From: Vicinamibacterales bacterium
GTDB lineage: Bacteria > Acidobacteriota > Vicinamibacteria > Vicinamibacterales > Fen-181
DNA length: 64,000 bases
Assembly: GCA_036504215.1 (NCBI GenBank)
Contig: DASXVO010000021.1
Span: 206,428-270,427 of the forward strand
Reading direction: 5' to 3'
The notes below the pieces were generated by a model. The model saw only the letters and a list, made by a program, of their open reading frames with translations, was not told where the DNA came from and did no database searches. How positions within the stretch are numbered: position 1 is the stretch's first letter; every line of letters starts with the position of its first letter. Position numbers and translations under genes: made by a program. This document shows positions 784 through 46,675 of the stretch, piece by piece.

Positions 784-2358
784 ATGATGTGTCGTATTCG
801 CTCTCGGATCGTGGCCGGGCCAACGGCCTCTTGCTCAGCCCTGGCCCTGTGGGTGCTCCTCTTCGCCCCTGGCGTGGCGATCGCCCAACCGGCTGGCGTG
901 GCGCGGCCCGCGGCGGCCGGCGTGGGCTCGGTCCCGGAGATGTCGCTCGAAGAATGCCTGCGCGTGGCCTTCGAGAGGAATCGGCAGCGGCCGGCTTCTC
1001 GCGACTCGATTGCAGTGGCCGAAGCACAGCATCGGCAGGCGCTGGCAGCGTACTGGCCGCAGGTGACCTTCAGCGGCGGGTTTCAGCGGCTCGACCGGGC
1101 GCCGAACTTCGTATTCCCGCCGAGCGCCTTCTACCTGCCCGCCCAGTCGGTCACGATCCCCGGGGGTACGGCGCTCGTCACGGTGCCGCCGGGCGTCTTC
1201 GGCCCGGCCCCCGTGAACCTGCCGGTCAGCGTGCCCGCGCAGACGATCAACACGCCGGCTCAGGCCTACCCGGTGCCCGCGCAGGACGTCAAGTTGATGG
1301 ACGAGGACTCGTGGCTCGCCAACGTCGGCGCGAAATGGCTGCTCGTCGATGGTGGGCTGCGCAAGGGCTATCGGCAGCAGGCCGGGGCCGCGGTGGACAT
1401 CGCCAAGGAGGACGCGCGGCTGACGGATCTCGAGATTCGCGACACCGTGACACGCTTCTACTACGGAGCGGTGCTCGCGCGCCTGCTTCGCCAACTCGGC
1501 GAGGATACGCTCGCGCGTCTGGAGGCCACGCTCGGCATGACCGAAGCGGTCTACAAGGAGGGCGCCGGAACCGTCACGAAAGCGGACTACCTCGACAACA
1601 AGATGATGGTCGAGACGGTCCGATCGATGGTGGCAATCCTCGAAAAGAACCACCTCATGAGCCAGGCGGCCCTCGCGAACGCGATCGGGAAGCCTTGGAA
1701 CGAGAGCGTCGCGCCGTCGGACCGCGCTCTGCCGCCACCCCCGCCTGCCGTTGATCTCGACGACGCGGTCGGCACGGCATTCCGCTTCAATCCGGATTGG
1801 GAGAAGCTCGAGGCGGCCTTGCGGGCGGCCGAGGGCGGCTTGACGACGGCCAAGAGCGGATTCATGCCCAAGCTCGCCCTGACCGGTACCCTCCGCCGAT
1901 GGTGGAACGACTACAGCTACGGACTCGCCACGGACCAGAACCGGACGGGGTGGACGCTCGGCGCGGGCGTCGAAATCCCGCTGTTCGACGGGTTCCTCAC
2001 AAAGAACAAGGTGGCCGAGGCGAGGGCGCAGATTCACCGGCTCGAGCAGCAGCAGTTCCTCCTGAAGGATGGTCTCGGCCTGCAGGTCAAGGACATCGTG
2101 CTCGGCCTGTCAGCCGCCTCGAAGGGCGCCCGCGCAACCTACGACGCCATGACGGCGGCATCGGAGAACCGCGAGCTCAATCTGCGCGCCTACCAGAACC
2201 AGTTGGTCGAGACCGACAAGGTCATCCGCGCGCAGTTGGCCGAGGCGATGACCTCGGCGCAGTACTACATGACGCTGTTCACCTGCGTGGACCTGCAGTC
2301 GAGGCTCCAGTTGCTGGTCGGTTCGGCCGTCCAGACCCAGATCGGACAGGCACGATGA
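784..2358 (+). CDS. TolC-like outer-membrane efflux protein
   Basis: A 524-residue protein with an N-terminal signal peptide (hydrophobic core ALALWVLLFAPGVAIA) followed by two outer-membrane-efflux repeats rich in long amphipathic helices, as in the TolC family. It has the usual length of such trimeric channel proteins. A Pro/Val-rich insert lies at about residues 115-165. The frame is open further upstream, but ATG at 784 has GGAG at 772-775 and leads straight into the signal peptide, so I use it. Its stop overlaps the start of the binding-protein gene (ATGA), implying translational coupling. No periplasmic adaptor or RND/MFS/ABC pump lies nearby, so a classical efflux role is not supported by context; it may supply the outer-membrane channel for the signalling operon (inference). 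Confidence 0.85.
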   Translation: MMCRIRSRIVAGPTASCSALALWVLLFAPGVAIAQPAGVARPAAAGVGSVPEMSLEECLRVAFERNRQRPASRDSIAVAEAQHRQALAAYWPQVTFSGGFQRLDRAPNFVFPPSAFYLPAQSVTIPGGTALVTVPPGVFGPAPVNLPVSVPAQTINTPAQAYPVPAQDVKLMDEDSWLANVGAKWLLVDGGLRKGYRQQAGAAVDIAKEDARLTDLEIRDTVTRFYYGAVLARLLRQLGEDTLARLEATLGMTEAVYKEGAGTVTKADYLDNKMMVETVRSMVAILEKNHLMSQAALANAIGKPWNESVAPSDRALPPPPPAVDLDDAVGTAFRFNPDWEKLEAALRAAEGGLTTAKSGFMPKLALTGTLRRWWNDYSYGLATDQNRTGWTLGAGVEIPLFDGFLTKNKVAEARAQIHRLEQQQFLLKDGLGLQVKDIVLGLSAASKGARATYDAMTAASENRELNLRAYQNQLVETDKVIRAQLAEAMTSAQYYMTLFTCVDLQSRLQLLVGSAVQTQIGQAR

Positions 2359-3335
2359 GCACGACGCGGGCTCGGACGCGTCTCGTCGTCGAGTGTGCGG
2401 CCGTCGTCCTCGCGTGTGCGTGCGTGCTGTCGGCCAACGTTCGCGAACAGGACCGCGGCCCGCTCACGGATCGGCCGACGACATCCTTCCTCCGGGTCGG
2501 CTTCGTCGATGCCGTGTTCGGCGAGGTCAACCACAACGACGCGCGGGCAGCCCTCAAGGCGTGGTCTCAGCGGGTCATCGCGGCGGCCGGGCTCGCCTTC
2601 GAGGGCGATGTCAAGCTGTTCGGCGACTCGGCCGCGCTCAAGGCGGCCGTGGATGCGGGCGCGATCGACATCATCGTCATCGAGACTGCCGAATACCTGC
2701 GCGTATTCACGCAGACCTCACGGCGGGACTGGATCCTGGCCGCCGAACGTCGAGGAACGCCGTTCGAGAGCTTCGTCCTGCTCACCAGAGTGGACAGCGG
2801 CATCCGACAGTTCAAGGACCTGCGGGGACGCGACGTGCTGGTCGTGGGGAACGCCCTCGGGGGCCTCGTCGGTTCGTGGCTCGATGTGTTGACCGGGAAG
2901 GAAGGCGACCGGATCGCCGCCGAGTTCTTCGGCGTCATCAACAAGAGGACGCAGGTGTCGAAGGCGGTGCTGCCGGTGTTCTTCCGGCAGGCGGCGGCGT
3001 GTGTCGTCACGCGCGCGGCGTACCAGACCATGTGCGAGCTGAACCCGCAGTTGGGACATCAACTCCGCATCGTCGCGGAGTCGGCGCCGGTCGTGACGGG
3101 AATCGCCTGCCTGGTCCGCCACTATGACCCGAAGGTGCAGGACAGGATCGAGCAGGCTGTGCTCAACCTCAATGTCTCGCCGGGTGGCCAGCAGGTGATG
3201 ACGCTGTTCCAATTCGACAAGCTGGTGCGCCAGCCGCCGACGTGCCTGGATAGTGCCCGCAGCCTGCTGGAAGAGCAGTCTCGGCAGTACGTCCGCCTGA
3301 AACGCGCCGCGCCCGGCGCCGGCGTTGCGAAGTAG
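2355..3335 (+). CDS. PhnD-like periplasmic substrate-binding protein, orphan
   Basis: A 326-residue exported protein: an Arg-rich start, a hydrophobic stretch (LVVECAAVVLACACVLSA), then a type-2 periplasmic binding fold of the phosphate/phosphite/phosphonate (PhnD) class. Recognisable features are VGFVDAVFGEVNHNDA at the first strand, IDIIVIETAEYLRV, the hinge segment FKDLRGRDVLVVG, and a C-terminal helix region. The start ATG overlaps the TolC-like stop by 4 bp. There is no ABC ATPase or permease gene in the window next to it; instead a membrane hybrid kinase starts 13 bp downstream. Such orphan binding proteins often present a ligand to a sensor kinase, as TorT does for TorS (family knowledge), so a sensory role is more likely than transport (inference). 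Ligand unknown. Confidence 0.75.
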   Translation: MSTTRARTRLVVECAAVVLACACVLSANVREQDRGPLTDRPTTSFLRVGFVDAVFGEVNHNDARAALKAWSQRVIAAAGLAFEGDVKLFGDSAALKAAVDAGAIDIIVIETAEYLRVFTQTSRRDWILAAERRGTPFESFVLLTRVDSGIRQFKDLRGRDVLVVGNALGGLVGSWLDVLTGKEGDRIAAEFFGVINKRTQVSKAVLPVFFRQAAACVVTRAAYQTMCELNPQLGHQLRIVAESAPVVTGIACLVRHYDPKVQDRIEQAVLNLNVSPGGQQVMTLFQFDKLVRQPPTCLDSARSLLEEQSRQYVRLKRAAPGAGVAK

Positions 3336-44587: not shown

Positions 44588-46021
44588 TCAGTGCAGAGAC
44601 TCCAAGGCCGCCGCCGCCGCCACTTCGGGCCCGTGCCCCTGGACGACGGATACACCGGGGGGCAGCGCTCGCAGTAGATTCCGAACCAGCTCCGACGGCG
44701 CACGCGGAGAACCATCGCCACCTGGCGCCCAGACGTCTCCCACGAAGAGCACGCCCGACATCGCGAAGTAGACGAGCAGGTCCGAGCTGCTGTGGAGGCC
44801 AAAGCAGGGAAACAGCCAGATCTGCTCTCCGTCGAACGGCAGCAGGTAGCCCCACAGGCGGCCTTTCCCCCGCCGGGCATCTCCCGGGAATTCCCGGCGT
44901 TGGACGATGCCCGCCGACGCGAGATAGGGAAGGCGGGGCCCGCGAACGATGATGGTGTCGGCGGCCGCCAGGACGTTCGCCTCGGTGTGGCCGGGATGAT
45001 CATGGGTATTGATCACGACGCGCGGCTGCCCATATCCGCGCTCCCGAAGCCACGCGGCGAGCGGATGAAGCGTGCGCAGCCACCCGGGGTCCACCAGCAG
45101 CGGGTCTCCTGCGCTGACGCAGACGCCGATGCTCGTACGGTTCGAGTACGGAAACACGACACGATGAACGAAGGGGGGAAAGGTGCTCACCGACGGCGGC
45201 TGCACCTCGGTCGTCGGCGCGCGACGCGCCGCAAGGCGTCGCGCCACGTCGGCGTGGCCATAGGCGACCGCAAGGTCCAGCGGTGAATCGCCGTTTGCGT
45301 CGAGCGCGTCGAGCCTCGCCCCCGCCTGGATGAGCTCTTCGGCGACGTCTGGGGCCCCGTATTGTGCGGCTTCGTGAAGGGCGTTTCTCGAGCGACGGTT
45401 CAGACGGTTCGGATTGGCTCCCGCCGCGAGCACAACCGCCGCAACCGATACCTCGCCGAGGCGCGCCGCATAGTGCAATGCCGTTCCGGCCGGACCGATG
45501 ATCGCGTCGGGATCCGCTCCTTCGTCGAGCAGCCGGCGCGTGGTTTCCGGAAAACGACAGACCACGGCATCGAGCAGCGCGAGGCGCGCACCCTTCCGCC
45601 GAAGCAGGCGCACGACTTCCGTTCGACCGCGGAGCGCCGCGATTTGAAGCGGAGTCCGATGGCGACGATCGGTGGCGAGGAGGTTCGCGCCGTGGCGCAA
45701 CATCGTCGCGACCACAGCAAGATCGCCATGGCGTGCGGCCAGGTGCAGGGGAGAGTCGCCCTCATCGTCCTGCACGTTCACGCCGGCGCCGCGCTGAAGC
45801 AGGAACTGCAGGAGTCGGCGGTTCCCGGTCGCGAGCGCGACATGAACCAGCGTCCGACCGAAGGGGTCTCGCAGGTTGAGGGAGTCGGGCCGGTCCTCGA
45901 CCAGGCGCACGACCCGCTCGGCATCTCCTCGAAGTGCGGCGGCAAACACCTGCGGCACAGTCCGTTGGCGGTGAAACCACCCGGGTGCCGGGACAGCCTG
46001 TTCGTGCGCGCCATCAAGCAT
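44588..46021 (-). CDS. Ankyrin-repeat protein fused to a metallo-beta-lactamase-fold domain
   Basis: About 477 residues from ATG 46021 (AAGGAGAGG 5 bp upstream); no signal peptide, so cytoplasmic. Residues about 35-290 form seven or so ankyrin repeats (FGRTLVHVALATGNRRLLQF, GDSPLHLAARHGDLAVV, HRTPLQIAALRGRTEVVRLL, GTALHYAARLGEVSVA, SRNALHEAAQYGAPDVAEEL, GDSPLDLAVAYGHADVARRL). Residues about 305-470 are a metallo-beta-lactamase fold: LLVDPGW, the metal motif HDHPGH (about 339-344), a later His in GLHSSSD, Asp in VLFVGDVW, and His in QGHGPE. The usual H-x-H-x-D-H has Gly in place of the Asp, so the second metal site may be changed. I know no named family with this order. Substrate unknown. Confidence 0.85.
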   Translation of the reverse strand: MLDGAHEQAVPAPGWFHRQRTVPQVFAAALRGDAERVVRLVEDRPDSLNLRDPFGRTLVHVALATGNRRLLQFLLQRGAGVNVQDDEGDSPLHLAARHGDLAVVATMLRHGANLLATDRRHRTPLQIAALRGRTEVVRLLRRKGARLALLDAVVCRFPETTRRLLDEGADPDAIIGPAGTALHYAARLGEVSVAAVVLAAGANPNRLNRRSRNALHEAAQYGAPDVAEELIQAGARLDALDANGDSPLDLAVAYGHADVARRLAARRAPTTEVQPPSVSTFPPFVHRVVFPYSNRTSIGVCVSAGDPLLVDPGWLRTLHPLAAWLRERGYGQPRVVINTHDHPGHTEANVLAAADTIIVRGPRLPYLASAGIVQRREFPGDARRGKGRLWGYLLPFDGEQIWLFPCFGLHSSSDLLVYFAMSGVLFVGDVWAPGGDGSPRAPSELVRNLLRALPPGVSVVQGHGPEVAAAAALESLH

Positions 46022-46180
46022 AAGATCCTCTCCTTGCGGATTAGACGAAACCCGGGCGAGGAAGACCTTACGTTCTGGTTCGATTTGCGCGATAAGTGCA
46101 CCGGGTGTGGGCACTCGTGCGTCCGGAGGAAATTCGAAGGTTACGCGAAGAGCGGGCGCCCGCGTCGCGCCGAGGGGTCC

Positions 46181-46675
46181 TCAGTACAGCAAAGGAATGA
46201 GTCTCCGCACGCGCCTTTGATAGGTGCGGTAACCCGGGAACCTGTCTGCCAACCACCTCTCCTCACGGCGTGACTTCAGATCGAGGAACACGAAGAGCAC
46301 GACCGCGTACCCCACCGTCAGCCAACTGCCAACATACAGCGCCCAGCCGAGGGCGAGGACCATCCCTCCGAAGTACATCGGATGGCGAACAAGCGCGTAG
46401 GGGCCGGTATCGATGAGCGTCGCACCGTCCTTCGGGTAGGGCAACGGCGTCAAGCCTGGGCCCAGCCTGATGATGCCCGCGATGAGGAACCCGGTCCCGG
46501 CAATCATCAGGACGAGACCCAGCGTGCCGCAGGCGCGCGGGAAGGGAAACATCGGCAGGGCTCGGTCGGCAAGCGTGCGGGGTCCGAAGAAGACCAGCGC
46601 GATCAGGGCGACCTGGACCACGACAAGCCATTCGCCGCGGGCTCCCTGCCACCAGCGTTCGTGATTGTCAGCCAT
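46181..46675 (-). CDS. Isoprenylcysteine-methyltransferase-like membrane methyltransferase
   Basis: 164 residues with four to five TM helices. The C-terminal half carries the ICMT/PEMT-type signature: GPYALVRHPMYFGGMVLALGWAL, followed by a helical hairpin, then REERWLADRFPGYRTYQRRV, the usual E-E..L...F...Y..Y pattern. Bacterial members methylate lipids, quinones or isoprenoid acceptors, or are uncharacterised. It lies 159 bp before the ankyrin-MBL start on the same strand; an operon is possible but not evident. It is divergent from the D-aminopeptidase gene. Confidence 0.88.
   Translation of the reverse strand: MADNHERWWQGARGEWLVVVQVALIALVFFGPRTLADRALPMFPFPRACGTLGLVLMIAGTGFLIAGIIRLGPGLTPLPYPKDGATLIDTGPYALVRHPMYFGGMVLALGWALYVGSWLTVGYAVVLFVFLDLKSRREERWLADRFPGYRTYQRRVRRLIPLLY

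Follow-up and report, generated by a model that had tools for sequence, protein, structure and literature searches.

The locus lies on contig DASXVO010000021.1 (positions 206,428-270,427) of a Vicinamibacterales bacterium of the Acidobacteriota (assembly GCA_036504215.1); the window, by which we mean the whole stretch of DNA that was analysed, is 64,000 nt long. On its minus strand a single reading frame, P0001, runs from an ATG at 46021 to a stop codon at 44588 and joins ankyrin repeats (ANK) to a metallo-beta-lactamase (MBL) fold. The features of the locus, in window coordinates, are as follows:

46181..46675, minus strand: PEMT/ICMT-type methyltransferase on the same strand as P0001, lying about 160 bp upstream of its ATG
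46030..46035, minus strand: Shine-Dalgarno-like AAGGAG, 8 nt before the P0001 ATG
44588..46021, minus strand: ANK-MBL fusion gene P0001, 477 residues plus stop (open reading frame, Pfam, AF2 model)
45215..45952, minus strand: eight ankyrin repeats, residues 24-269, repeats 4 and 5 degenerate (Pfam Ank_2, AF2 helix pairs)
44591..45193, minus strand: compact MBL fold, residues about 277-477 (Pfam, AF2, BcII structure match)
44987..45004, minus strand: altered metal motif His340-Asp-His342-Pro-Gly344-His345, sequence THDHPGH, HxHxDH in the family (alignments)
44990..44992, minus strand: Gly344 in place of Asp120; its codon, GGC, differs from GAC by a single base
44792..44794, minus strand: His410, equivalent to His196, in GLHSSSD (alignment with family ligands)
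44735..44737, minus strand: Asp429, the bridging Asp, in GDVW (alignment with family ligands)
44633..44635, minus strand: His463, equivalent to His263, in QGHG (alignment with family ligands)

That P0001 is a chance reading frame is ruled out by its Pfam matches, the Shine-Dalgarno sequence, the AF2 model and its relatives. Ank_2 matches with an E value of 2.6e-49 (several ankyrin models score), Lactamase_B (PF00753) matches with an E value of 1.9e-5 and 25.1 bits, above the Pfam gathering score of 22.7, and the codon-position GC of the frame is coding-like. An initial annotation of this DNA had placed ankyrin repeats directly before an MBL fold in one frame of about 477 residues; the arrangement is real and its coordinates were correct, and we add the strand (minus), which had been left unstated.

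The AF2 model of the whole protein, built from a 38-row alignment, consists of an ankyrin solenoid and an MBL domain (mean pLDDT 88). Fold searches with this full model returned matches filled by ankyrin proteins, and the MBL domain was therefore modelled separately (pLDDT 90.3). The resulting model has the alpha-beta-beta-alpha fold of the MBL superfamily and matches the class B1 beta-lactamase BcII with a Z score of 18.9 (rmsd 2.7 over 182 aligned residues, 19% identity; VIA-align); the structure of the BcII D120S mutant (2uyx) is among the equal matches. P0001 and BcII have in common the compact fold and the three His residues of site 1, whereas P0001 has a bridging Asp in place of Cys221, a Gly in place of Asp120, and an added ankyrin domain; judged from the predicted model, the likeness to class B beta-lactamases is one of fold only.

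The superfamily motif HxHxDH reads HDHPGH in P0001, and all of the alignments made place Gly344 opposite Asp120, which bears out the earlier observation that the Asp is missing and that the other ligands (His410, Asp429 and His463 among them) are retained. Six of the seven metal ligands are thus kept. By alignment, site 1 is complete (His340, His342, His410 and the bridging Asp429), and site 2 keeps His345, His463 and the bridging Asp, with Gly344 in place of Asp120. The initial annotation's term 'metal-poor' is too strong, because the three-His-plus-Asp site is whole and one ligand is missing from the second site only. Nor is Gly standard at this position in related MBLs, whereas the annotation had reckoned with its being so in a known active subfamily. 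Of the 154 distinct sequences of related MBLs in which a [TS]HxHx?H motif could be read, a count blind to sequences in which another His has changed, 148 have Asp at the position, 5 have Glu, and P0001 alone has Gly. Related MBLs with HxHxEH were also seen (L047-L050), of which at least L048 and L049 are without the bridging Asp (VGA or VGG for GD).

Whole-genome searches numbered 1048 (some genomes repeated, all Acidobacteriota; in large genomes only the best candidates were scored), and a domain-architecture search of the kind proposed earlier finds ankyrin repeats directly before the same MBL subfamily, in one frame as in P0001, in five other Acidobacteriota genomes (L022/L087, L042, L043, L196 and L214). 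The domain order is therefore not unique, as had been implied, and belongs to a small Acidobacteriota family. One of these relatives, L196, is collinear with P0001 over both domains (residues 24-467, E value 1e-54 for the pair), and this, together with the fusions in four other genomes, disposes of the earlier concern that two genes had been joined by error. An assembly or sequencing artefact, either a chimeric joining or a base error turning GAC into GGC, is on the whole very improbable: the codon does lie one base from that of Asp and the genome is a draft in 90 contigs, but the same fusion order recurs in the five other genomes, L196 continues across the junction, and the divergence flanking the motif (EAN in place of the family's xGN, and loss of the LLLS loop) exceeds a single base.

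The Asp of HxHxDH is kept in all five of the other fusions, in contrast to the Gly of P0001. A different change is seen in L214 (G629, 958-2301), in which the motif reads THSDWDH and Asp replaces the second metal-binding His. L022/L087 and L042 carry an additional N-terminal LamG/DUF1080-like domain before the ankyrin and MBL parts. The same MBL subfamily also includes unfused secreted proteins (L215, L216 and L217) and a double-MBL protein (L044), which, unlike P0001, have no ankyrin repeats and a canonical HxHxDH. A second locus of the family lies in the genome of P0001 itself (L161, G000:C54:134500-139500, about 1962-3082); it is of the LamG/DUF1080-ankyrin-MBL type and is broken: its reading frame changes downstream of the LamG region, and between AFPWGMM and DDVLDVFP the MBL core is for the most part absent, so that the locus may represent either a pseudogene or an assembly error. 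Scans of a species-wide genome collection, which use short exact motifs that fusions can escape, gave no relative with P0001 alone and 76 relatives with alignment A2, none of which was seen to carry HxHxGH; a plasmid search with the MBL part of P0001 gave no match. A single text search of open-access papers found no description of an ankyrin-MBL family, and NCBIfam holds no model specific to it, so that the family is apparently undescribed and unnamed.

The fusions form, together with L086 (a sequence cut by its contig end), L044 and L215-L217, an MBL clade that is split from other MBLs with support of 100/99 (100/100 with further relatives). The MBL domain of P0001 falls inside this clade, its exact place made unsure by a terminal branch of 2.7-2.8, the longest in the clade (medians 0.25-0.66), and the branching order within the clade is likewise unsure. 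An approximately unbiased (AU) test rejected the six fusions as a single clade, a result that is uninformative because the truncated L086 nests among them; on the sequences at hand, the fusion may plausibly have arisen once.

P0001 differs from its relatives at 24 of the 48 family-conserved columns yet keeps six of its seven metal ligands, a retention that is weakly significant (Fisher p 0.049; 0.12 without the tail gaps). It lacks the conserved loop that follows GD (LLLSxSxPAV in the family), and the C-terminal tail of its relatives, about 60 residues long, is missing as well. Such losses raise the question of decay, in which P0001 would be drifting toward a pseudogene after loss of its export signal and the Gly would be one of many unselected changes. 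Change at half of the conserved columns, the missing tail and the second, visibly broken family locus are what such drift would produce; the intact 477-residue frame with its good Shine-Dalgarno sequence, the coding-like codon-position GC, and the retained ligands within a confidently predicted fold argue against it, and we regard it as unlikely.

The N-terminal region of P0001 has a best 12-residue mean hydropathy of 0.81 (0.58 from an upstream GTG start), against 2.18-3.86 in nine relatives compared, with and without ankyrin repeats, and the hydropathy scan finds no signal peptide of the kind by which the other members would be exported. All of the five other fusions have a signal-peptide-like start. 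The earlier description of the protein as cytoplasmic is thereby supported, and P0001 would be a cytoplasmic offshoot of an otherwise exported family.

The gene neighbourhood offers no functional hint. A scan for promoters and terminators at the locus gave nothing above chance, and a TonB-dependent receptor lies downstream. The upstream methyltransferase is a possible operon partner; a conserved operon of the two genes is unsupported, because a 54% identical relative of the methyltransferase in G006 lacks a neighbouring ANK-MBL gene across the 11.6 kb inspected. In two distant Acidobacteriota, G041 and G556, ANK-MBL genes adjoin genes for ankyrin-PD40 (WD40-like propeller) proteins (clusters at L213, G556:C23, 2802-11299, and L087, 135-4762), and none of the neighbours of P0001 that were scanned is such a gene. 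The G556 cluster also contains a plain MBL, and 9869-11299 of L213 encodes an MBL-like protein whose tail is formed by TPR, the only part that Pfam detects; its motif region, NTVDRLDLIGGN, apparently lacks the metal-binding His.

P0001 was also compared with several known groups. The FprA-like diiron grouping, a comparison suggested earlier, does not apply: the second motif position is His and not Glu (no HxExD), and the ODP profile scores 11.5 bits against a cut-off of 27.2. Pfam finds no HAGH_C match, the C-terminal domain of glyoxalase II, in P0001. Matches to Dot/Icm ankyrin effectors (AnkY, AnkH and others) fall far below the NCBIfam equivalog cut-offs (86 bits against 600, others likewise) and are, at the level of sequence, generic ankyrin similarity.

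What the loss of Asp120 would mean for activity can be gauged from enzymes in which this residue has been replaced. Any substitution in CphA strongly lowers activity, most of which is lost (PMC5018959); the Asp120Asn change in BcII lowers it more than 100-fold with the second zinc still bound, and Asp120 mutants of L1 retain about a tenth (PMC2422870), so that a dead enzyme is not implied for P0001. ETHE1 and some other MBL-fold enzymes use one metal with the second-site residues kept, and CPSF100 and INTS9 are catalytically inactive MBL-fold proteins held to act by partner binding, CPSF100 being inactive through a broken HxHxDH motif (PMC4819959); the latter two differ from P0001 in belonging to an unrelated, eukaryotic subfamily with a beta-CASP domain. 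The L1 mutants and ETHE1, together with the complete first site, also leave room for an active enzyme, a hydrolase or oxygenase with a mononuclear or an asymmetric dinuclear site. A single Zn or Fe in the His3-Asp site would then be catalytic, the ankyrin domain would deliver the substrate and Asp120 would be dispensable. The near-invariance of Asp120 in related MBLs, the missing GD loop and tail, and the very long branch weigh against such an enzyme, which we consider doubtful and yet the chief rival of the reading that we favour.

Taken with the literature on Asp120 mutants, ETHE1 and CPSF100/INTS9, the evidence leads us to favour, with slightly less than even confidence, a relocated and diverged ANK-MBL protein that is probably a one-metal protein, catalytically weak or dead, and acts mainly by ankyrin-mediated binding. 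The gene would descend from the exported Acidobacteriota family, and its product, if expressed, would be cytoplasmic, where the ankyrin solenoid may bind a putative partner protein and hold the MBL domain beside it. In the predicted model this domain is still folded, and a single divalent metal ion probably occupies its His340/His342/His410/Asp429 site. Gly344 would represent the loss of the catalytic Asp that orients the second metal, and this loss, with that of the GD loop and the C-terminal tail, would leave the domain catalytically poor or dead; the main role of P0001 would then probably be binding or scaffolding, as with CPSF100 and INTS9. A bolder version, in which an exported metalloenzyme family moved to the cytoplasm and became an ankyrin-guided one-metal regulator or acquired a new, Asp-independent chemistry, seems to us improbable.

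In a small and apparently undescribed family of the Acidobacteriota, ankyrin repeats are thus fused to an MBL domain, and two of its members carry different changes in the metal motif (in P0001 Gly replaces Asp, in L214 Asp replaces the second His). Because these two altered members stand beside canonical relatives that can serve as natural controls, the family offers a tractable test of how MBL metal chemistry is lost or changed when the domain is tethered to a binding domain.
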